A DNA stretch of 64,000 nucleotides from NCBI RefSeq assembly GCF_001418015.1, contig NZ_LIQG01000032.1:1-64000 (forward strand), read 5' to 3'. The notes below the pieces were generated by a model. It made no database searches and was not told the DNA's origin. It saw only the letters and a list, made by a program, of their open reading frames with translations. The DNA is from Lacinutrix mariniflava. Lineage in GTDB: Bacteria; Bacteroidota; Bacteroidia; Flavobacteriales; Flavobacteriaceae. The translations under genes were made by a program, and so were the position numbers. Below, one piece after another: positions 15,178 through 53,329 of the stretch (positions within the stretch are counted from its first letter, which is position 1; every line of letters begins with the position of its first letter).

Positions 15178-17952
15178 TTATCTAACTAATTGCTTTGTAG
15201 AAGGTTTGAATTTTGTTAAAACAATACCATCTACTGCTGCTTCGTATTCTGCCATAGTAGGCGTTCTACCTAAAATTGTAGATAATACTACTACTGGTGT
15301 AGATGATAATAATGACTCCCCTTTTTTCTCACCAGAATCTTTTACAACTCTACCTTGGAATAAACGTGTTGAAGTCGCCATAACAGTATCTCCTGGTGCA
15401 GCTTTTTCTTGGTTACCCATACATAAGTTACAACCTGGACGCTCTAAGTATAACATGTTTTCGTATCCTGTACGTGCTTCTCCTTTAGGCGCATTGTCAT
15501 CGAACTCGAAACCTGAGTATCTTACTAAAACTTCCCAATCGCCTTCTGCTTTTAACTCATCTACAATATTGTATGTAGGAGGAGCAACTATTAAAGGTGC
15601 TTTAAATTCTACTTTACCATATTGAGCTTCTACGTTTTTCAACATTTGAGCTAATATTTTCATATCTCCTTTGTGAACCATACAAGATCCTACGAACCCT
15701 AAATCTACTTTTTTAGTTCCGCCGTAGTAAGATAATGGTCTAATATTATCGTGTGTGTAACGCTTAGAAACATCATCGTTATTTACATCTGGATCAGCAA
15801 TCATTGGTTCAACAATTTCATCTAAATCGATAATAACTTCTGCATGATATTTAGCGTTGGCATCTGGTCTTAAAGAAGGTTTCATACCTGTTTTAAGCTC
15901 TATAATTCTAGTTTCTGCTTTATCTACTAAACCTTTAAGCACTTGTTTAGCATTATCCATTCCTTTTTCAATCATGATTTGGATACGACCTTTTGCAATC
16001 TCTAAAGATTCAATTAGCGTATCGTCTTCAGAAATACAAATAGATGCTTTAGCTTTCATTTCTGCCGTCCAATCTGTAAATGTAAAGGCTTCATCTGCAG
16101 TAAGCGTACCAATGTGTACTTCGATAACACGACCTTGGAATACGTTTTCACCACCAAATTGCTTTAACATTTGAGATTGTGTTGCATGAACAACATCACG
16201 GAAATCCATATAAGCTTTCATTTGTCCTTTAAAGGTTACTTTAACCGATTCTGGAATTGGCATTGAAGCCTCACCTGTAGCAAGTGCTAATGCAACAGTT
16301 CCTGAATCTGCTCCAAAAGCAACACCTTTAGACATACGTGTGTGTGAATCTCCACCAATAATGATGTCCCAATCACCAACTGTAATATCGTTAAGTACTT
16401 TATGGATAACATCAGTCATTGGAAAGTAATTTCCTTTAGGATCACGACCAGTAATTAATCCAAAGTCGTTCATGAAGCTCATTAATCTTGGAATGTTAGC
16501 TTTAGACTTATCATCCCAAACTGAAGCTGTATGACAACCAGATTGGTATGCACCATCAACAATTGGAGAAATAACTGTAGCAGCCATCATCTCTAATTCT
16601 TGAGACGTCATTAATCCTGTAGTATCCTGAGAACCAACAATATTAACTTCTGCTCGCACATAAGAACCAGCATGTAAAATTGCTCCTGAAGTTCCAACAG
16701 CATTTTTATTAAATATTTTTTCTACAGCCGTTAAACCTTGTCCTTCAATAGTTATTTCTTTTGAAGTTGCATATACTTGAGGTGCTTCAACACCTAAAGC
16801 TTTAGCAGCAAATGTTTGTAGTTTTTTACCAAAAACAACTGCATAAGAACCACCGGCTTTCATAAACTCCATTTTTTGTGGCGTAAATGCTGCAGAGATA
16901 TCTTTAAGTTCTTTATCTCCGTTATATAATTTTTTCTCTTTTGTATTAATTGTAAGAATTGTACCTGTAGCTACAGAGTACGTTTCTTTTAATATTGGCT
17001 CTCCATCTTCATCTCTAACTGTATTTCCTTCAGCATCTTTTTGCTGTACCCAGTTTTTAAGATCTAAACCAATACCACCTGTTACACCAACTGTTGTTAA
17101 GAAAATTGGAGCAATACCATTAGTACCAGCAATTACTGGTGCAAAATTAATAAAAGGTACATATTTGCTAAAAGGAACACCTGTCCATAAAGCCACGTTA
17201 TTTACACCAGACATTCTAGAAGAACCAACTCCCATTGTTCCTTTTTCGGCAATTAGCATGACGCGCTTATCTGGATATTGTTTTTTTAAAGCTAATAATT
17301 CGTTTTGCATGTCTTTGTTATGCTCAAACATACATTGACCATGTAACTCACGATCCGACCTTGAATGCGCATCGCCACCTGGAGATAATAAATCTGTAGA
17401 AATATCACCAACTCCGGCAACATAAGTTACAACATCGATTTTTTCATCTATTTCAGGAAGCTTTGTAAAAAATTCTGCTTTCGCGTAACTTTCTATAATA
17501 TCTTTAGCGACGCTATTTCCGCTTTTAAGCGCTTCTTCTAAACGCGCTGTATCTGCTTCGTAAAGGAAGACTTGTGTTTTTAAAACATCTGATGCTGATT
17601 TTGCTAAATCTGCATCTGTACCTAAAGCGATATCTAGAAGAACTTCTACTGATGGTCCTCCTTTCATATGAGACAACTGTTCGAAAGCAAATGCAGGTGT
17701 AATTTCTTTTACTACTGATTCACCAAGAATAATTTCCTTTAAAAATTTTGCTTTAACACCTGCAGCACTAGTAGTACCAGGTAAAACATTATAGATAAAA
17801 AAGTTTAGAGACTCTTCTCTCTCTGTGTTATCTATATCTTTAATTTGCTCAATGATTTTGCTAAGTAATTCTGCACCATCAATTGGCTGTGGATGAAGCC
17901 CTTGTTCTTTTCGGTTCTCGATCTGCTTAAGGTAGTCGTTATAAATGTTCAT
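15178..17952 (-). CDS. acnB: bifunctional aconitate hydratase 2 / 2-methylisocitrate dehydratase
   Basis: 924 residues, the length of AcnB. The N-terminal HEAT-like domain (NIYNDYLKQIENRKEQGLHP) is followed by the swivel and the catalytic domains, with iron-sulphur ligands in SGCHTASVWDD, VGSCMVHKGDM and ERPGCNLCMGNQ. It can act in the TCA cycle and, in organisms with a methylcitrate cycle, on 2-methylisocitrate; no prp genes are visible here. It precedes the acnA-type gene but has its own terminator, so the two need not be one transcript. Confidence 0.93.
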   Translation of the reverse strand: MNIYNDYLKQIENRKEQGLHPQPIDGAELLSKIIEQIKDIDNTEREESLNFFIYNVLPGTTSAAGVKAKFLKEIILGESVVKEITPAFAFEQLSHMKGGPSVEVLLDIALGTDADLAKSASDVLKTQVFLYEADTARLEEALKSGNSVAKDIIESYAKAEFFTKLPEIDEKIDVVTYVAGVGDISTDLLSPGGDAHSRSDRELHGQCMFEHNKDMQNELLALKKQYPDKRVMLIAEKGTMGVGSSRMSGVNNVALWTGVPFSKYVPFINFAPVIAGTNGIAPIFLTTVGVTGGIGLDLKNWVQQKDAEGNTVRDEDGEPILKETYSVATGTILTINTKEKKLYNGDKELKDISAAFTPQKMEFMKAGGSYAVVFGKKLQTFAAKALGVEAPQVYATSKEITIEGQGLTAVEKIFNKNAVGTSGAILHAGSYVRAEVNIVGSQDTTGLMTSQELEMMAATVISPIVDGAYQSGCHTASVWDDKSKANIPRLMSFMNDFGLITGRDPKGNYFPMTDVIHKVLNDITVGDWDIIIGGDSHTRMSKGVAFGADSGTVALALATGEASMPIPESVKVTFKGQMKAYMDFRDVVHATQSQMLKQFGGENVFQGRVIEVHIGTLTADEAFTFTDWTAEMKAKASICISEDDTLIESLEIAKGRIQIMIEKGMDNAKQVLKGLVDKAETRIIELKTGMKPSLRPDANAKYHAEVIIDLDEIVEPMIADPDVNNDDVSKRYTHDNIRPLSYYGGTKKVDLGFVGSCMVHKGDMKILAQMLKNVEAQYGKVEFKAPLIVAPPTYNIVDELKAEGDWEVLVRYSGFEFDDNAPKGEARTGYENMLYLERPGCNLCMGNQEKAAPGDTVMATSTRLFQGRVVKDSGEKKGESLLSSTPVVVLSTILGRTPTMAEYEAAVDGIVLTKFKPSTKQLVR

Positions 17953-32227: not shown

Positions 32228-32468
32228 TTTTGATGTTTTTCTGAATTAGTAATTAAAAGTTATTACGTTTTAAAATAACCAATAGCTCCAATTTAATTCT
32301 TGGTTTAAAATAAAAAAAAATCATAAGTATTTTGGACTCTTTAGAATAATATTAACACTCTTTACATAAGGAAACTTAGACTTGACTTTGTAAAAAAAAT
32401 CTGCTAACTTCGAAAATAATATAACGTTGAATATAATTCATTGAAACGGAATCATATTCTAGTGACAT
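32228..32468 (+). repeat. array 1 leader repeat, copy A
   Basis: Two blocks (32228-32260 and 32326-32468) recur with few changes at 33372-33544, where they are joined. The block holds a promoter-like pair, the 19-nt motif TTCGAAAATAATATAACGT (32409-32427) and ends GTGACAT. The left part is the natural upstream flank of the GH3-like gene, so the chromosome flank itself was copied. Confidence 0.85.
32382..32412 (+). promoter_or_regulatory. array 1 candidate promoter (copy A)
   Basis: TTG at 32382-32384, 20-nt spacer, then TAACTTCG at 32405-32412 (one change from TAnnTTTG). Copy B has the same pair at 33458-33460 and 33481-33488. In the second array the same TTGACTTT start is followed after 20 nt by GAACTTCG. 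Confidence 0.55.
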
Positions 32469-32479
32469 TACAAATAATA

Positions 32480-32716
32480 CAAACCAAAATATAGAAAAAT
32501 AAGTTTATTCTTAATTATAAAACTAATAAGTGCTTTTTCCATCAGTTATGACAGCGATCTTTGCGATGATGAATATACTCAACTAGATAATGGAATACGG
32601 CCTCCTGATTCTGTTGTTGAAATAGAAAAGAGTACTAACCTAGTAAGTGTTTTTACCATTCTGAATATGGTGCTATTACATACAAAAATGATAATTGGTA
32701 TGATGAAAACAATTAA
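32480..32716 (+). pseudogene. decayed exported-protein gene in array 1
   Basis: No start is visible, but one frame reads LFLIIKLISAFSISYDSDL, then CDDEYTQLDNGIRPPDSVVE up to about 32630, and a second frame then continues as YHSEYGAITYKNDNWYDENN followed by a stop at 32714-32716. The hydrophobic start and the change of frame suggest a frameshifted remnant of a small exported protein. It lies directly after leader copy A, where the array would place a gene. Confidence 0.5.
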
Positions 32717-32744
32717 TGATTGAAAATATAAAGAACTAGATATT

Positions 32745-33290
32745 ATGAAGAATATTTTTTTAATTATTATAATCTTTTCGTGTTCATTAGCTAATGCACA
32801 ATTCAACAAGGGAACTGTTTTTTTTAAAGACTCTACTGATCAAAAAGGTCTAGTCCGAATTAAAATATTTGGTGGAATTAAGTTTAAGACTGAAAAAGAT
32901 TCTAAATCTACATTTTATGATTACAACAAAATTATTGGATTTGATACTGATGGCAACAAATATAGATATGTAAAAAATCAAGACGGATTTCCACCCAAAT
33001 TATTTAAGGAAAATATAAAAGGGAAGATTTCTTTATATAGTAAGGAAGTATCTAATCCCGGAGTCCCAAACGGTTTTGGAGGAGGCGGAATGACTTTTGG
33101 TGGTGGTTCTGCAACAATTTATTATATTCTTGTAAAAGACAAACTTATAAGGGTTGGAACTAGAATAAAAAAGAAACATTTAAAGATTTTAAAAAATTGT
33201 ACAACCTTAATTGAGAAAATTAAAAGAAAAGATTTTAAAAAAAGAGATGTGTTTGACATCATCAATTATTACAATAATAGTTGCGATTAA
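32745..33290 (+). CDS. small exported protein of array 1, function unknown
   Basis: 181 residues with a signal peptide (MKNIFLIIIIFSCSLANAQ). The body is basic and beta-rich (GTVFFKDSTDQKGLVRIKIF, then YNKIIGFDTDGNKYRYVKNQ), with a glycine-rich loop (NGFGGGGMTFGGGSATIYY) and a lysine-rich C-terminal helix. I do not recognise the family; similar short exported proteins are common in flavobacterial accessory regions. It has no leader of its own, lying behind the decayed gene, and ends just before the attC-like element at 33306. Confidence 0.7.
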   Translation: MKNIFLIIIIFSCSLANAQFNKGTVFFKDSTDQKGLVRIKIFGGIKFKTEKDSKSTFYDYNKIIGFDTDGNKYRYVKNQDGFPPKLFKENIKGKISLYSKEVSNPGVPNGFGGGGMTFGGGSATIYYILVKDKLIRVGTRIKKKHLKILKNCTTLIEKIKRKDFKKRDVFDIINYYNNSCD

Positions 33291-33305
33291 TAAAATAGTA
33301 TTTTT

Positions 33306-33371
33306 AATACCGTATATAATTTATTGCTTGTTCTCACCTACTTATGAAAATCCGTGAGAATTTCCTATTCG
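33306..33371 (+). repeat. array 1 attC-like element
   Basis: Begins 16 nt after a stop codon. ACCGTATATAATTTATTG followed by CTTGTTCTCACCTACTTATG matches elements after the genes of array 2 (ACCGTGTATAATTAATGGCT..., GCATATAACTTATTGCTAG...). TTCTCAC and GTGAGAA pair as an internal stem. It runs straight into leader copy B. Confidence 0.65.
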
Positions 33372-33544
33372 TTTTGACGTTTTTCTGAATTAGTAATTAA
33401 AAGTATTTTAGACTCTTTATAATAACATTAACACGCTTTACATAAGGAAACTTAAACTTGACTTTTAAAAAAAAATCTGCTAACTTCGAAAATAATATAA
33501 CGTTGAATATAATGCATTGATACGGAACCATATGCGAGTGACAT
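33372..33544 (+). repeat. array 1 leader repeat, copy B
   Basis: Near-copy of 32228-32260 plus 32326-32468 with 65 nt between them missing. Contains the promoter-like pair TTG (33458-33460)/TAACTTCG (33481-33488) and the 19-mer TTCGAAAATAATATAACGT at 33485-33503. It lies 64 nt before the BspA-like gene and presumably drives it. Confidence 0.85.
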
Positions 33545-33608
33545 CAACTATAATAATGAAAAACTGTTCTGAATTCAATAACTTAACACAATAATTTATT
33601 TCCCTTCT

Positions 33609-35540
33609 ATGACACACATGCCAAAATTTATCTCAGTTCTAATATTACTATATTGCCTTACAAATCCAAGTCAAATTGTATCGCAAAACGAATTCATTAC
33701 CACATGGAAAACTGATAATTCAGGAACTTCAAGCGATGTTCAAATAACAATCCCAACTTTTGGTGAAGGGTATAATTACGACATAGATTGGGAAAATGAT
33801 GGAGTATTTGATGATTTTAGTGTTACGGGAAACATAACACACACTTATGCCAGTGCTGGAACATACACAGTAGCTATACAAGGTGATTTTCCTTTTATTC
33901 ACTTTAATGATGAGGGAGACAAAGATAAAATACTAAGCATAGACCAATGGGGAATGCAACAATGGCTTAGCATGAGAGATAGTTTTAAAGGCTGTAGTAA
34001 TCTACTAATTAATGCAACTGACGTACCGAATTTATCAATAGTTACTACAATGAGTCATATGTTTCATAATGCGGTAAATTTTAATGGAGATATTAGCACT
34101 TGGGATGTGAGTAATGTAAGTGATATGAGTTGGATGTTTGACAATGCAAATGGCTTTAACCAAGATATAAGCTCTTGGGATGTGAGCAATGTAACTGATA
34201 TGAGATTTATGTTTCATGACGCTTGGTCCTTTAACCAACCTATTGGAGTTTGGAACGTTAGTAGTGTAATCAATATGGAATCAACGTTTAATCGTGCTTG
34301 GGCTTTTAACCAACCTATTGAAGCTTGGAATGTCAGTAATGTAACTAATATGGAATCCATGTTCGGAACTACAGGCTTTTTTAATCAACCTATTGAAGCT
34401 TGGGATGTAAGCAATGTAACTAATATGCATGAAATGTTTACAGCTTCTTATGCTTTTAATCAACCTATTGGAGGTTGGGATGTAAGTAGTGTAACAGATA
34501 TGTCCTTTATGTTTGCATCGCAAGTATTTAATCAACCTATTGGTGATTGGGATGTTAGCAGTGTTACAAATATGACTCAAATGTTTAGTGGAGCTATAAT
34601 GTTTAATCAACCTATTGGCAGTTGGGATGTAAGTAGTGTTACAGAAATGCACGGAATGTTTAGTGGTGCAAAAATATTTGATCAACCTATCGGAAATTGG
34701 GATGTTGGCAATGTAACTACAATGGTCTTTATGTTTGATGGTGCAAAAATATTTAACCAAGATATAGGGAATTGGGATGTGAGCAATGTTATTAATATGA
34801 ATGGCATGTTTTTACGTACAGATAATTTTAATCAGGACATTGGCAATTGGGATGTAAGCAATGTTTTTTACTTAGGCGTAATGTTTTATAAAGCTAATGT
34901 ATTTAATCAAGATATTGGTTCTTGGGACGTTAGTAGTGCAATTAATACAAAGTACATGTTTCGTGAGGCACCAAATTTCAATCAAGACATAGGATCTTGG
35001 GACGTGAGTAACGTAGCAAACATGGAATTTATGTTCACAGATGCTACCTCATTTAATCAAGATTTAGGTAATTGGAATGTTAGCAACGTCACAACAATGG
35101 AAGAAATGTTTAACGGGGCTGCATTATCTATTGAAAATTATGATAGTTTATTAATTAATTGGTCTGCTTTACCATTAAACAGTAATATCAATTTTCATGC
35201 TGGCAATAGTAACTATTGCAATGGAGAAGATGAAAAGCAGATTATAATAAATAATTTTAATTGGACCATAACAGACAATGGGTTAGACTGCTCAACGCTT
35301 AGTAATTCTTCAAATAGTATACAAGATAAAATAGTTTATCCAAACCCAACTACTGGAAAGATTACTATTCAAGGATTAGATGGTGTGAATTCAAGTATTA
35401 AAATATTAAATATACATGGTCAGGAGATCAAAGAAATAAGCGATTATATTAATGGAACTTATATTGATTTGACGAACTTTAGTAACGGAATGTATTTTAT
35501 TAAAATCAACTCAAAGCATTCAATTACAACAAAAAAATAG
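33609..35540 (+). CDS. BspA/DUF285-repeat surface protein with PKD-like and T9SS domains
   Basis: 643 residues: signal peptide, a PKD-like domain (about 30-100; DIDWENDGVFDDFSVTGNIT, then HTYASAGTYTVAI), then fourteen tandem 25-residue repeats of the form FNQPIGxWDVSSVTxMxxMF (about residues 155-505), a Cys-bearing linker and a type IX sorting domain (KIVYPNPTTGKITIQGLDG ... GMYFIKINS). The repeats are DUF285/BspA-type, found in adhesins of diverse bacteria. It is likely a large surface protein secreted by the type IX system. The repeat unit is also conserved at DNA level, so copy-number change is likely. Confidence 0.85.
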   Translation: MTHMPKFISVLILLYCLTNPSQIVSQNEFITTWKTDNSGTSSDVQITIPTFGEGYNYDIDWENDGVFDDFSVTGNITHTYASAGTYTVAIQGDFPFIHFNDEGDKDKILSIDQWGMQQWLSMRDSFKGCSNLLINATDVPNLSIVTTMSHMFHNAVNFNGDISTWDVSNVSDMSWMFDNANGFNQDISSWDVSNVTDMRFMFHDAWSFNQPIGVWNVSSVINMESTFNRAWAFNQPIEAWNVSNVTNMESMFGTTGFFNQPIEAWDVSNVTNMHEMFTASYAFNQPIGGWDVSSVTDMSFMFASQVFNQPIGDWDVSSVTNMTQMFSGAIMFNQPIGSWDVSSVTEMHGMFSGAKIFDQPIGNWDVGNVTTMVFMFDGAKIFNQDIGNWDVSNVINMNGMFLRTDNFNQDIGNWDVSNVFYLGVMFYKANVFNQDIGSWDVSSAINTKYMFREAPNFNQDIGSWDVSNVANMEFMFTDATSFNQDLGNWNVSNVTTMEEMFNGAALSIENYDSLLINWSALPLNSNINFHAGNSNYCNGEDEKQIIINNFNWTITDNGLDCSTLSNSSNSIQDKIVYPNPTTGKITIQGLDGVNSSIKILNIHGQEIKEISDYINGTYIDLTNFSNGMYFIKINSKHSITTKK

Positions 35541-35634
35541 TTAAGATTAATTAGTTTTTCTTACTAAACCTTACTAAAGTCAGCAGTAAGTGATTACTCA
35601 AGTATAAAAAAAATTTGTATCATTCTTTGACTTA

Positions 35635-35859
35635 TGATGATGTTCTAAATACACGTTCACCATTTTATCTGAATGTGCAGGTTGTAAAAACTGAAAAGAA
35701 GAATTCTCAAAATTTATAGCGGTATTTAAGCCATCTGATTTTCTGATTATTGATGATGACAAATCTCAAAACGGTTTGGAAAGTGGAATAAAAGAAAAAC
35801 TAATTCTAACTGATTTAATAAAAGGCCTTGACTTAGAAAAGCTAAGTGGATTAAATTAA
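35635..35859 (+). pseudogene. decayed gene in array 1 (in-frame TGA)
   Basis: One frame reads YTFTILSECAGCKN, a TGA at 35692-35694, then KEEFSKFIAVFKPSDFLIID and continues DDKSQNGLESGIKEKLILT to a stop at 35857-35859. A Trp codon changed to TGA by one transition would restore it. No start or signal peptide is visible upstream, so only the C-terminal part remains. The ECAGC motif may be a cysteine pair. The stretch before it (35541-35634) holds nothing else I can support. Confidence 0.5.
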
Positions 35860-35872
35860 AAACTAAATAATC

Positions 35873-36328
35873 ATGAAAAAAATTATATGTTTTTTATTGA
35901 TATTAACAATATCAAGTTGTGTTAAAGAACTTGAAATATATTCTACACAATATATTGTTTAAAACGAGACTGAAACTCCAATAAAACTAAAGTTTTATCT
36001 AACGTCTACTAATGAATTAGTAGATGTTTAAACAAAAAATAATACTCTACAAGGAAAATTATTTAGAAGAGGCTCTACATCTCCTTTAGATTATTCAGAT
36101 GATAGTTTCGCGAGAAGCGAATTTAGTGTTGGAGATTCTTTAGTAGTTATCTTGAATAACGAAAAACAAATGACAATGCAAGTAGGTTCTAATGGTTATT
36201 CTGAACCTAATAATAGAAATATATACAGATATGGAAGCTATAATTATATTGGAAATGATCAATTCCTTTACACATTTAGTAAAGAAGACTACAATAACGC
36301 AGAAGATTGTAATGGAGGTTGTGAATAA
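35873..36328 (+). pseudogene. lipoprotein gene with two in-frame TAA codons
   Basis: One frame from ATG 35873 to TAA 36326-36328 (151 codons) reads a complete small lipoprotein: MKKIICFLLILTISSCVKEL (lipobox SSC) through RRGSTSPLDYSDDSFARSEF and YRYGSYNYIGNDQFLYTFSK to NGGCE. It is broken only by TAA at 35960-35962 and at 36029-36031. Both fit Gln codons (CAA) changed by one C-to-T transition each, and the frame is kept throughout, which suggests recent loss. It could be a readthrough case, but no sign of that is seen. Family unknown. Confidence 0.75.
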
Positions 36329-36336
36329 ACACAATT

Positions 36337-36374
36337 GCCAACCACGTATATAAAAACGTTATATTATTTTCGAA
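36337..36374 (+). repeat. array 1 right end: shortened attC-like element with inverted 19-mer
   Basis: GCCAACCACGTATATAA is joined to ACGTTATATTATTTTCGAA (36356-36374), which is the exact reverse complement of the 19-mer in leaders A (32409-32427) and B (33485-33503). It starts 8 nt after the decayed lipoprotein gene. Confidence 0.75.
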
Positions 36375-49925: not shown

Positions 49926-49950
49926 ACAGAATTTTATTACTATAAATTTA

Positions 49951-49990
49951 ACAGCCAAGACATATTTTGTTTTGGCTGTTTTTGGTTTTT
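49951..49990 (+). terminator. terminator of pepT, copied into array 2
   Basis: ACAGCCAA (49951-49958)/TTGGCTGT (49972-49979), 13-nt loop, then a T-rich tail. The same hairpin form recurs in each leader of array 2 (e.g. AGCCAAA/TTTGGCT at 50141-50165), each followed by the same promoter-like block. Confidence 0.75.
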
Positions 49991-50084
49991 ACGAACTTGA
50001 CTTTGTAAAATAAATAGTCGAACTTCGTTTAACGTACGATATAAAACATTGAAACGCTTTTATATTAGAGAGACATTAAACGAA
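49961..50084 (+). repeat. array 2 leader, copy 1 (empty unit)
   Basis: Right part of the pepT terminator, then TTG (49997-49999), 20 nt, GAACTTCG (50020-50027), 12-mer TTCGTTTAACGT (50024-50035), a hairpin-like GATATAAAA...TTTTATAT and, with no gene between, ACATTAAACGAA at 50073-50084, one base from the complement of the 12-mer. Confidence 0.8.
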
Positions 50085-50260
50085 CCTCTTCAAAAATTAT
50101 AAAACATTAATTCTGAAGAAAAAAAGTAAAACCAAACAATAGCCAAAGCATATTTTGTTTTGGCTGTTTTGGTTTTACGAACTTGACTTTGTAAAAGAAA
50201 TAGTCGAACTTCGTTTAACGTATGATTTAAAACAATGAAATGCTTTTATATCAACGAGAC
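50085..50260 (+). repeat. array 2 leader, copy 2
   Basis: Begins ACCTCTTCAAAAATTATAAA, then a terminator-like hairpin (50128-50176), TTG (50183-50185), 20 nt, GAACTTCG (50206-50213), 12-mer at 50210-50221 and leader hairpin arms. It precedes the hydrolase gene by 11 nt. Confidence 0.85.
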
Positions 50261-50271
50261 TTTGCAACAAT

Positions 50272-51111
50272 ATGAGAACAGTACTTATTTTAATGTTTAT
50301 TTTAAGCTTCAACGTAGGTTTCGGTCAAGAAATTTTTGATTTTGAAAAAGAAATTGATTCATTAGAAAATTATCATTCTCAAGAGATTAATTTTCTTGAT
50401 ACAAAAGAAAATATTAAATTAAGTGGAACCTTAATAACTCCTAAAACAAATTTCTCTAAAATAGTAATTATAGCACCAGGAAGTGGAAAAGATACAAGAC
50501 ATTCGCATTACGTTATGGCTGAGAGATTTTTGAAAAACGGAATTGCTGTATATAGATATGATGATAGAGGAATTGGGAAATCTGAAGGTAAATATAAACG
50601 AAACATAAAACAGAATATTTCCGATTTATATTATGCATTCAGAAAGCTAAGGCAAGTTGATTCTTTATCTAACAAAACTATTGGGATACTTGGTCATAGT
50701 AATGGTGGTTATGCAAGTGTAAATGCTTTGCAAAAAGGATTGAAAATTGACTTTTTAATTTTAATGTCAACACCAATTGAAAAAAAAGGAGAATTTTTAA
50801 ATCATAAATTTAAAACTAAAAAAGGAAAAACAACTTTTAAAGAAGTTTATGAAAGTTTAAAAATTCCTGTTTTATTTATTACAGGAACTAATGATACAGT
50901 AGTTAATAGTGTAAACACATACAAACTTTTAAAAGAATTAAACAATCCGAAAATTGAAATACAAATTTTGGAAGGCTTAAATCATTTTTTAAGAATTGGA
51001 ATTGATAACTTTTATAAAACTAAAGATTATAATTCACTTTATGAAATTGATGAAAATGCTTTGAATATTATAATCAAATGGACAACAAATACTGTTGCCA
51101 ACACTGTATAA
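50272..51111 (+). CDS. exported alpha/beta hydrolase (array 2 cargo)
   Basis: 279 residues with a signal peptide (MRTVLILMFILSFNVGFGQ). The alpha/beta hydrolase fold is clear: oxyanion turn IIAPGSGKDTRHSHYV, YRYDDRGIGKSEGKYK, nucleophile in ILGHSNGGYAS, acid in ITGTNDTVV and His in LEGLNHFLRIG. It is likely an esterase or peptidase in the periplasm. Its last codons (about ANTV plus stop) are made by the attC-like element that begins at 51097, as in integron-type cassettes. Confidence 0.85.
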   Translation: MRTVLILMFILSFNVGFGQEIFDFEKEIDSLENYHSQEINFLDTKENIKLSGTLITPKTNFSKIVIIAPGSGKDTRHSHYVMAERFLKNGIAVYRYDDRGIGKSEGKYKRNIKQNISDLYYAFRKLRQVDSLSNKTIGILGHSNGGYASVNALQKGLKIDFLILMSTPIEKKGEFLNHKFKTKKGKTTFKEVYESLKIPVLFITGTNDTVVNSVNTYKLLKELNNPKIEIQILEGLNHFLRIGIDNFYKTKDYNSLYEIDENALNIIIKWTTNTVANTV

Positions 51112-51230
51112 AAATAATGCTTAAATTAGTGCTTAATTAAAGGTTAGTGCTCTTTTGTTACGTCTGATTTTCCTTCGGAAAATCCTCGCACACAAAACCG
51201 CACTATTCTTATACAACAACGTAAAACGAA
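51097..51230 (+). repeat. array 2 attC-like element 1
   Basis: 134 nt. GCCAACACTGTATAAAAATA at the left pairs imperfectly with GCACTATTCTTATACAACAA at the right; an inner hairpin GATTTTCC-TTC-GGAAAATC is perfect. It ends ACGTAAAACGAA (51219-51230), near-complement of the leader 12-mer. Confidence 0.7.
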
Positions 51231-51410
51231 TCTCTTCAAAAATTATAAAACATTAATTCTGAAGAAAAAAAATAAAACCAAACAATAGCCAAAGCATATT
51301 TTGTTTTGGCTGTTTTGGTTTTACGAACTTGACTTTGTAAAATAAATAGTCGAACTTCGTTTAACGTATGATATAAAACATTGAAACGCTTTTATATCAG
51401 CGAGACATTA
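51231..51410 (+). repeat. array 2 leader, copy 3
   Basis: Same blocks as copy 2: terminator-like hairpin, TTG (51329-51331), 20 nt, GAACTTCG (51352-51359), 12-mer TTCGTTTAACGT (51356-51367), then GATATAAAA and TTTTATATC arms, a perfect 9-bp hairpin here. It precedes the MORN-like gene by 17 nt. Confidence 0.85.
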
Positions 51411-51427
51411 AAAACGAAAATCTACAA

Positions 51428-52081
51428 ATGAAACGTACACTATTCTTTTTATTATTGTTTTTTATAATGAATACTTTGAGCGCTCAAATTCAAAAGACAT
51501 ATTACGAAAATGGTCAAATAAAGCAAGTTGGAGAATATTTAAATGGAAAACAAGTAGGGATTTGGAAAGCTTATTCTGACAATGGAAAACTAAATGTATT
51601 CGCTCAATTTGAAAATGGCAAACCAACAAACGAATGGAAGTTCTATCATTATAATGGAGCATTAAAAGAAATTGGAAAATTCCATAACGGATTGAAAATT
51701 GGAGAATGGAAAAGCTTTTATGATAATGGCAAACTAAAAGAAATCGGAAAATTTAAAGATGGAAAGTTTCAAGATAAATGGAAAGTATTTTATAAAAATA
51801 GTATTTTAAAAGAAGTTGGGAATTATAAAAATGGTGAACCAATTGGCAAATGGAAAGAATATCATACTAATGGAAAAATAAAAAGTGTAGGGGAATTTAT
51901 AAACGGTAAAACTTCAGGTGAATGGAAAGGTTATTACGATAATGGAAAATTGTCTTCAATTGGAAAATATGATAATGGAAATAGAAATGGAAAGTGGGTA
52001 TTATATTATGAAAATGGAAAAATAAAGGAGACTGCAACATTTGAAAATGGCACAATGATAGAAAGCTCTGAAAACAACTAA
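51428..52081 (+). CDS. MORN-like (YwqK-family) repeat protein (array 2 cargo)
   Basis: 217 residues: signal peptide (MKRTLFFLLLFFIMNTLSAQ) and then about eight repeats of 23 residues of the type YYENGQIKQVGEYLNGKQVG, each with a W or F at the turn (GIWKAY, GEWKSF, GKWKEY, GEWKGY). This is the MORN-like repeat of the toxin-antitoxin YwqK antitoxin family, but here it is exported and no toxin gene is adjacent. Probably binds a partner or lipid on the surface. It ends just before the attC-like element at 52087. Confidence 0.85.
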   Translation: MKRTLFFLLLFFIMNTLSAQIQKTYYENGQIKQVGEYLNGKQVGIWKAYSDNGKLNVFAQFENGKPTNEWKFYHYNGALKEIGKFHNGLKIGEWKSFYDNGKLKEIGKFKDGKFQDKWKVFYKNSILKEVGNYKNGEPIGKWKEYHTNGKIKSVGEFINGKTSGEWKGYYDNGKLSSIGKYDNGNRNGKWVLYYENGKIKETATFENGTMIESSENN

Positions 52082-52086
52082 CGTTT

Positions 52087-52170
52087 GCTAACAAAGCATA
52101 TAACTTATTGCTAGTTCTACCTTGCTTACGAAAATCCTCGCAATTAACCATAAACTAAACGTTAAACGAA
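52087..52170 (+). repeat. array 2 attC-like element 2 (short)
   Basis: 84 nt, GCTAACAAAGCATATAACTT at the left, matching the left ends of the elements at 33306 and 53194, and ACGTTAAACGAA at 52159-52170, the exact complement of the leader 12-mer. The middle is shortened. Confidence 0.7.
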
Positions 52171-52351
52171 CCTCTTCAAAAATTTTAAAACATTAATTCT
52201 GAAGAAAAAAAGGAATCCCAAACAATAGCCAGAATACATTTTGTTTTGGCTGTTTTGGTTTTTAGAAACTTGACTTTGTAAGATAAATAGTCGAACTTCG
52301 TTTAACGTATGATATAGAATATTGAAACGCTTTTATACCAACGAAACATTA
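52171..52351 (+). repeat. array 2 leader, copy 4
   Basis: Same blocks as copies 2 and 3, with more changes: TTG (52270-52272), 20 nt, GAACTTCG (52293-52300), 12-mer at 52297-52308, and a leader stem that is now imperfect. It precedes the NTR-like gene by 8 nt. Confidence 0.82.
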
Positions 52352-52359
52352 GCACAAAT

Positions 52360-53184
52360 ATGAAAAAACGCATCCTGACAATATTAACTTTTCTGATTTC
52401 AGCTATAACTTTTGCTTGTAGTTGCGATATACCAAAGCCGATTCTTGAATTTGAATCTGCTGAATATGTTTTTGAAGGTAAAGTTGTCTCTAAAGTTTAT
52501 GCGATTGACTCTTTGACTTACACCGTTACTTTTGAAATTTCAAAGCACTATAAAGAAAGTGATAAGCCAAAAATAATGGAATTCACTTTCAAATCTGAAG
52601 GAAAATATACTGGCGAATGGACTTCGTGTGATTGGAGTGTAAATCAAGACGAAAACTGGCTTGTGTATGCAAACTATTGGAATGAAAAACTGACTTTTGG
52701 CTACAATTGTTCAAATTCAAAACCTTTATGCAGAAGAACTATTTCAAAAAGTGAGCAGAAAATTTTAGACAATGGAAATTCTTTCAAATTGGAAAATTAC
52801 ATTTATCAATTTGAACACGATTTTAATTACACAAAACCGATTTCTAATATTGATTCTATATTAAAAACTGGAAAAATTAAAGATTACGAAAGACCTTTTA
52901 CTTGGTTAAAATTATTTGTTGATAAAAACGGTAATCTAAATTCGGTAACTACACACATTGGTTATCAACTTAAAACAGATTCAATATTCAACCTTCCAAC
53001 TGAATTTAAAATAAAGTTAAGAAAACCACTAACTGAATTTGAGAAAGACGCAATTGAATTAGTGAAAAAAATCCCGAAATGGGAAATAAAAAAGCATAAA
53101 AAAACGAATGTTCCTGTTCCTTATATTCGACATTTAGCGATTGAATTTAATAAAGAAAAAAAGGAATGGAAATACGAATTATAA
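52360..53184 (+). CDS. exported protein with TIMP/NTR-like N-terminal domain (array 2 cargo)
   Basis: 274 residues. The signal peptide ends in FACSCDIPKPILEFESAEYV: a CxC at the mature start followed by the VFEGKVVSKV strand is the pattern of NTR/TIMP-type OB-fold domains, whose first Cys often chelates a protease metal. Cys pairs later (WTSCDW, YNCSNSKPLCRR) would close disulphides. The second half (residues ~150-270) is charged, with no family recognised. A role as a secreted inhibitor or binding protein is only a guess. Flanked by leader copy 4 and attC-like element 3. Confidence 0.65.
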   Translation: MKKRILTILTFLISAITFACSCDIPKPILEFESAEYVFEGKVVSKVYAIDSLTYTVTFEISKHYKESDKPKIMEFTFKSEGKYTGEWTSCDWSVNQDENWLVYANYWNEKLTFGYNCSNSKPLCRRTISKSEQKILDNGNSFKLENYIYQFEHDFNYTKPISNIDSILKTGKIKDYERPFTWLKLFVDKNGNLNSVTTHIGYQLKTDSIFNLPTEFKIKLRKPLTEFEKDAIELVKKIPKWEIKKHKKTNVPVPYIRHLAIEFNKEKKEWKYEL

Positions 53185-53193
53185 AATACTTGT

Positions 53194-53329
53194 GCTAACA
53201 CCGTGTATAATTAATGGCTTGTTTTAAGCCTACTTACGAACATTCCTGCGGAATATTCTATCTGTGATTTATTTGCTAACTTAGTTGCCTAAATCACGCA
53301 ACCAATCATACACAACAACGTTAAACGAA
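53194..53329 (+). repeat. array 2 attC-like element 3 (right end)
   Basis: 136 nt. GCTAACACCGTGTATAATTA (left) can pair with CAATCATACACAACAACGTT (right), and three inner hairpins are perfect: GGCTT/AAGCC, ATTCC/GGAAT and GTGATTTA/TAAATCAC. It ends ACGTTAAACGAA (53318-53329). No leader follows, so this closes the array; 53330-53424 holds nothing else. Confidence 0.72.

Follow-up and report, generated by a model that had tools for sequence, protein, structure and literature searches.

Between pepT and cydA in Lacinutrix mariniflava a short leader is found four times, three times in front of a gene that is followed by an attC-like palindrome and once with no gene at all, which raises the question of how such genes come to be gathered at one site and whether leader, gene and attC belong to the same unit. 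The locus occupies positions 49951-53329 of the window, by which we mean the whole stretch of 64,000 nucleotides (nt) analyzed here (contig NZ_LIQG01000032.1, positions 1 to 64,000). In this study, the leader was followed through the genome and its relatives, and it is very likely, judging from sequence, that the locus is one part of a flavobacterial integron that combines a storage array with dozens of dispersed single-cassette expression slots, the cassettes coming from a common pool. The evidence read from the sequences comprises the anatomy of the slots, which we call platforms, cargo exchange, cassette boundaries, attC hallmarks, cassettes shared between sites and an array beside a recombinase.

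The leader lies at 49993-50074, 50179-50260, 51325-51406 and 52266-52347, and a 191-nt unit can be aligned to these four sites without gaps at 63%, 100%, 95% and 65% identity to the reference copy, in agreement with the initial annotation of this DNA, which had reported four leaders, one of them without a gene. The features of the locus, with open reading frame abbreviated as ORF and amino acids as aa, are the following.

49950..49992, plus strand: pepT terminator hairpin (AACAGCC...GGCTGTT and a T tract), also within the duplicated platform unit
49993..50084, plus strand: platform 1, empty, with promoter-like pair, left arm TTCGTTTAACGT, hairpin loop ATTGAAACG and right arm TTAAACGAA
50179..50260, plus strand: platform 2, with promoter-like pair, left arm and hairpin (101 bits)
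50272..51111, plus strand: cassette 1 ORF, alpha/beta hydrolase, 279 aa, signal-peptide-like N-terminus (by eye)
51094..51221, plus strand: attC of cassette 1 (116 bits)
51220..51230, plus strand: right arm of platform 2, CGTAAAACGAA, one mismatch
51325..51406, plus strand: platform 3, with promoter-like pair, left arm and hairpin (108 bits)
51428..52081, plus strand: cassette 2 ORF, MORN_2-repeat protein, 217 aa, signal-peptide-like N-terminus (by eye)
52084..52161, plus strand: short, weak attC-like element of cassette 2 (39.8 bits, E 9.6e-6)
52160..52170, plus strand: right arm of platform 3, CGTTAAACGAA, exact
52266..52347, plus strand: platform 4, with promoter-like pair, left arm and hairpin (99 bits)
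52360..53184, plus strand: cassette 3 ORF, 274 aa, lipoprotein-like N-terminus (by eye)
53191..53320, plus strand: attC of cassette 3 (109 bits)
53319..53329, plus strand: right arm of platform 4, CGTTAAACGAA, exact, and end of the array

The terminator-like hairpin, the TTG-N20-GAACTTCG motif and the leader hairpin that the initial annotation had described recur in each copy. The first is the pepT-terminator hairpin AACAGCC...GGCTGTT (DNA fold z -7.1), and the second forms the promoter-like pair TTGACTTTG...GAACTTCG, which we take to resemble the flavobacterial -33/-7 promoter consensus. The hairpin loop reads ATTGAAACG, with AATGAAATG instead in one copy. Within the window CATTGAAACG occurs 3 times against 0.08 expected; TTGACTTTGTAAAA, at up to 2 mismatches, occurs 7 times against 3.97 expected and 10 of 100 shuffles held as many, so that on its own this count is within chance. 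In the gene-free first copy ...GAGACA is joined directly to TTAAACGAACC and reads on as ...GAGACA|TTAAACGAACCTCTTC, and this empty platform, with its insertion point ACA|TT, folds as a single hairpin. Because TTAAACGAACC (once as TAAAACGAATC) returns after each of the three genes, behind the attC-like element, the genes look inserted into an otherwise continuous site. An attC-like element does follow each gene, as had been noted, the one at 52084-52161 being short and weak. R'' of cassette 3 (TGTGCTAA) is the exact complement of the left end TTAGCACA, and in cassette 1 R'' (GTTGCCAA) and the left end TTTGCAAC match at 7 of 8 positions, shifted by one base from the usual register. Regarding cargo, the earlier labels of alpha/beta hydrolase and MORN-like protein are supported by Pfam (Hydrolase_4, 7.6e-20, for cassette 1; MORN_2, 2.6e-32, for cassette 2), while NTR-like for cassette 3 is unsupported because the Pfam search of the 274-aa protein gave no match at 1e-3. 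The N-termini agree with the idea that all three proteins are exported, judged by eye only, and five cargo proteins compared with PADLOC gave no match at 0.01.

The cassette reading of the initial annotation is upheld by integron-type attC elements together with cargo exchange. Most cassettes start with TTnnnnnn and finish in a 127-130-nt end of the form nnnnnnAAC-ACC-GTRTATAATTAATTGC...GCAACTAAYCATAYAC-AACAA-CG|TT; some ends are shorter and some are ~190 nt. For the comparison of R' with R'', 40 attCs were kept, namely those of 115-200 nt that have the AAC start, and a mean of 4.4 of the 6 variable bases were complementary versus 2.04 after permutation (0/10000 permutations as high), with at least 5 of 6 in a fixed register in 27 of the 40 cassettes. 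The bottom strand of the attC folds better in 34/35 cases, by a mean of 3.8 kcal/mol with R' restored from the left end of the cassette, a set from which five of the 40 had been dropped (R match below 7/8) and in which two of the 35 were shortened at an inner CG; for random 136-mers the difference between the strands is 1.3 kcal/mol and may favor either one. The longest ORF lies on the promoter strand in all 54 cassettes that have one of at least 60 aa, and 6 of the 60 bounded cassettes have none of that length. A second, longer attC-like class of ~190 nt with a different inner sequence was seen at L177:5317-5513 and L077:1293-1483. L255:8990-9115, an IMG/VR sequence classed as viral, matches the 23-nt attC-start pattern and has, by eye, an attC-like right end.

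Elsewhere in the same genome (G000) the attC model locates 47 attCs on one strand over 50 kb (C20:21886-72264), one of them split between two loci, and this array starts ~450 nt from a divergent recombinase gene:

C20:20599-21432: tyrosine recombinase, 278 aa, divergent from the 47-attC array

Cassettes of this array type are also found in platforms. One of 558 bp is 100% identical between the array and a platform of the same genome at C32:150309, the identity running from |TTGTATGC to ACG|TT at both places with different sequence outside, and another stretch of 1995 nt is shared at 97.7% between a platform of this genome and an array of G005, with the same kind of ends; in such crossover ends the TT is common to both sides. 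On sequence, these two pairs are the strongest sign of presumed site-specific movement. In addition, platforms of G000 and G005 with different arm types share 847 nt at 98.9%, starting about four bases inside the left crossover. Near-identical palindrome-rich stretches of ~190 nt were seen by eye after two attC crossovers within the C20 array (L235:15434-15620 and 17014-17200), and the cargo of a G012 platform, L156, holds sequence related to this stretch.

Which enzyme acts on these sites is suggested by position. The search proposed in the initial annotation gives the tyrosine recombinase beside the 47-attC array as the probable candidate, and most likely this array-adjacent protein performs the reaction, acting on platforms in trans. 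Eight further recombinase loci have attCs within 2 kb (two each in G002 and G005, one each in G007, G008, G009 and G011). Two integrase types can be told apart, one of ~278 aa divergent from the array and one of ~376-384 aa in array direction, a contrast seen between G005 C45/C37 and G002 at 184.8 kb and 2.54 Mb versus G000, G007, G009 and G011; at G008:C1 834574-835381 the gene is broken by several stops and adjoins a long attC run. In the phylogenetic tree, from which L270-L273 and L275 (no usable ORF), L280 (too short) and L112 were left out, the flavobacterial family (11 rows, support 85/85) forms its own group beside IntI (6 rows, 100/100), nearer to it than to Xer (5 rows, 100/99) under midpoint rooting. 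Viral contigs hold four relatives at 26-32% identity. It is possible, though in our view unlikely, that XerC/XerD or some other recombinase serves the platforms: many of the searched genomes encode Xer-like proteins, and G003 has platforms with a Xer-like protein as the only match found, but attCs occur no further than 2 kb from nine loci of the array-adjacent type, which are spread over seven genomes and include one broken copy, and arrays and platforms have cassettes in common.

Platforms were located with a covariance model of the leader, and their anatomy was studied in 119 leaders from five species (G000, 50; G012, 25; G005, 21; G002, 14; G007, 9). These include 60 bounded cassettes, 17 empty platforms, 1 short one and 41 leaders without an identified right arm. 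In an alignment fitted to the model, each of the 11 pairs of the leader hairpin shows two-sided changes (0/500 shuffles as high by any of five measures). The left arm has its complement in a right arm, which is placed directly behind the hairpin if the platform is empty and beyond the cassette if it is occupied, and most of the 17 empty platforms fold as one long hairpin. For the 68 platforms with non-consensus arms, the downstream right arm was exact in 15 and within one mismatch in 36, compared with 15 and 550 among the 4338 swapped pairs that served as a control. Terminator-like hairpins are found after 33 of 78 right arms and before 36 of 119 promoters, versus 23 of 400 random windows, which fits with predicted independent transcription at some of the sites. 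Insulation between the units, as the initial annotation had proposed, may plausibly occur. An Rfam search gave no family matching the platform or the attC. An insert of ~23 nt (CTTGTGCTGAACTTGATTCAGTA type) was observed inside the conserved hairpin loop at L071:4770, L065:7410 and 13306, and L067:3238. The conserved loop, the covarying stem, the position of the hairpin downstream of the promoter-like pair and the absence of a strand preference in its fold would all suit a leader that acts mainly as a cis-regulatory RNA, with the hairpin read as RNA and cassette exchange secondary. Nevertheless, the cargo varies between sites, the arms covary with a partner beyond the gene and the structure is kept in empty platforms, so we regard such a primary function as improbable; cis-regulation may be a second role of the leader and no true alternative.

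The covariance model finds 53 leader matches at E<=1 and 48 at E<=0.01 in the genome of the window, on at least 12 contigs. Of the 12 other genomes in the genus 11 also have matches, as does one of 12 further genera sampled within the family, and Winogradskyella is leader-positive besides Lacinutrix; outside the family, 1 of 15 genomes had a weak match (E 0.005). A second model at E<=1e-4 matched 48 of 249 family genomes in 45 of 235 genera, the genome of the window counted, under strict filters and with at most 18 candidates scored per genome, so that counts per genome are lower bounds. Nine loci were inspected in other genera: one proved to be an empty platform, in four a right arm with 0-1 mismatch follows directly on the attC, and the remaining four showed no clear right arm within the 1.5 kb examined. 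The initial annotation had suggested one mechanism at work at several sites and a search for all arrays in the genome: the 48 matches at E<=0.01, cargo exchange at conserved sites and integron-type attCs agree with this, rather than two loci only with plain tandem duplications in relatives.

It was further proposed to compare strains, and a comparison of species revealed that cargo changes at conserved sites. Orthologous sites were defined by flanks of at least 400 nt at 75% identity or more, in the analyzed stretches of five species rather than at every platform of each genome. There are 19 site groups, some of which merge neighboring or tandem platforms, and 12 of them include an empty platform, so that empty and occupied forms both occur at the same orthologous site. 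Only 2 of 68 directly linked occupied cross-species pairs share cargo, with unbounded cargo compared over its first 1000 nt. At the pepT site, the four platforms of G000 correspond to one empty platform and degenerate copies in G012 and to another cassette in G005; by eye, the 420 nt after pepT hold a degenerate platform in G002 and a variant in G001 and G010, no platform was seen there in G006, G007, G009 and G011, and no pepT match was found in G003. These observations bear on whether promoter, hairpin, gene and attC are one composite mobile unit that inserts whole with no resident platform. Because platforms are dispersed over at least 12 contigs they must have moved at some time, and the four genomes without a platform by eye after pepT would fit such a unit as well. 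It is made very improbable by the seventeen empty platforms, by orthologous platforms with differing cargo and by cassettes shared between array and platform whose identity starts after the hairpin. The promoter and hairpin, which the initial annotation had listed together with the attC, are not one unit with it because the attC belongs to the cassette and the other two to the resident platform.

Duplication can account for part of the pattern. The terminator that was thought to have been copied is best read as the product of a tandem duplication in which the platform was copied together with its upstream flank, at a spacing of 186 nt, and tandem duplication plausibly multiplied platforms at the pepT site and at C32:150-162 kb. 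In the latter region (G000, L065) seven leader matches were observed within 12 kb, several of them holding different cassettes. As a complete explanation, with the promoter region duplicated and genes then gained by homologous recombination without any cassette mechanism, it can be practically dismissed, since the inclusion of the local terminator flank in the repeat and its plausibility as a multiplier at these two places are set against crossover boundaries, R'/R'' complementarity, attC strand asymmetry and one cassette at unrelated sites.

The other array of the window, array 1 (32378-36374), has the plan of the pepT-cydA array with other arm letters (left TTCGAAAATAATATAACGTT, right AACGTTATATTATTTTCGAA), confirming the shared design that had been described for it, with a differing arm sequence.

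32378..32466, plus strand: array 1, platform 1, arm TTCGAAAATAATATAACGTT
32745..33290, plus strand: cargo ORF, 181 aa
33300..33406, plus strand: degenerate attC-like element (31 bits, E 0.00075)
33454..33542, plus strand: array 1, platform 2
33609..35540, plus strand: cargo ORF, 643 aa, repeat-rich
36355..36374, plus strand: right arm AACGTTATATTATTTTCGAA, complement of the left arm, ~2.8 kb past platform 2

The 643-aa cargo protein (33609-35540) contains many repeats of the type FNQPIG.WDVS.VT.M..MF.

Several observations weigh against the integron reading and should be taken into account. In the platform itself, the innermost hairpin pair fails in 75 of 112 sequences, and the hairpin lacks the bottom-strand preference of an attC (41 bottom and 65 top among 114 leaders). 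The 11-nt arm is short: among 114 platforms, five of the 119 leaders having been dropped for an unrecognizable arm, 70 have a match within one mismatch downstream and 30 also upstream, where neighboring platforms as well as chance contribute. The consensus arm occurs at up to one mismatch in 21 of the 68 non-consensus platforms, and the 41 leaders without an identifiable right arm and the short one belong here too. A fourth platform/array pair (G002, 85.8%, 633 nt) starts at the crossover and ends inside the attC. A search of 355 kb in and around the arrays gave no platform, and because of this the platform and the main attI are considered to differ. The parts of the system do not always occur together: G008 (84% complete) has attCs and a broken recombinase with no leader match, G003 (89% complete) has 10 leader matches with only a Xer-like match for the recombinase, and several family members have attCs with no platform found. 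Finally, the recombinase scores below the NCBIfam cut-offs (180.7 versus 265 bits for TIGR02249; 206.8 versus 220 for NF040815), and the IntI-specific insertion is absent, the distance between patches being 58-59 residues in 11/11 sequences versus 100 in the 3 IntI rows in which the motif was found; near patch III the protein is 43 residues shorter than IntI4 (2a3v) at the insertion. The genome of the window gave nothing over the cut-off of the integron-integrase model. Within Bacteroidota as a whole canonical IntI is not uncommon, exceeding its cut-off in 57 of 198 sampled genomes (0/57 in Flavobacteriaceae). The recombinase holds the position of IntI and is not IntI by the tested definition because of its score below cut-off and the missing insertion.

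Taking both sides together, the arrangement of a store with dispersed platforms could work as follows. The platform would be a resident chromosomal attI-like site consisting of promoter, left arm, 5' hairpin and complementary right arm. A circular cassette of gene and attC, released from the array or brought in from outside, would join the platform via its attC, with insertion at (A/G)|TT between hairpin and right arm, so that the gene reads away from the promoter. It could then be read from the platform promoter and be replaced later, while the same pool of cassettes would also fill the large array elsewhere in the genome; we infer that transcription of the cargo starts from the promoter-like pair and that most cassettes in the array stay silent. 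Extra slots would arise when platform and upstream terminator are duplicated in tandem, at the 186-nt spacing seen here.

Integrons have been described as devices confined to a single locus, in which one attI lies next to intI (PMC9668308, PMC8618304), and the IntI-specific domain as necessary for integron recombination (PMC9668308). For Bacteroidetes, the IntegronFinder 2.0 paper lists nothing but integrase-without-cassette elements and a single complete integron, from Salinibacter (PMC9024848). In the open-licence literature we found no description of promoter-bearing dispersed platforms or of integron cassettes in Flavobacteriaceae platforms. We consider it rather probable that Flavobacteriaceae have a separate integron lineage without the IntI domain, a distributed device present in many genera that combines a store with scattered swap-in expression slots. 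If this is true, the classical limit that mainly the first cassettes are expressed would be removed, and a marine family would make wide use of integrons whose enzyme falls outside the tested IntI definition and whose cassettes can be expressed from many sites in each genome. Two questions also become open to testing: does attC recombination require the IntI-specific domain, and by what means can one bacterium express many cassettes at once? Platforms also mark, at fixed addresses, genes swapped between related species.

Among known systems, CALIN elements (clusters of attC lacking integrase) are presented as proposed degraded integrons reported with at least 2 attCs (PMC9024848). They resemble the present system in having attC-bearing cassettes away from an integrase gene and differ from it in that a platform here usually holds one cassette and 17 of 119 are empty. 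Another related system is the sedentary chromosomal integron, where a recombinase likewise adjoins a one-direction cassette array and where R''/R' complementarity, L''/L' pairing, bottom-strand preference and a crossover before TT are found as well. Unlike in the sedentary integron, the recombinase here is without the IntI-specific insertion and falls in its own tree group, and there are ~50 further promoter-bearing insertion sites outside the array. Loot et al. in 2024 reportedly observed cassette insertion at non-classical genomic attG sites, which are said to be degenerate chance sites. Integron cassettes are found outside an integron in both cases; in contrast to attG sites, the platform is a conserved device with a promoter-like pair, a hairpin and matching arms, kept between species.

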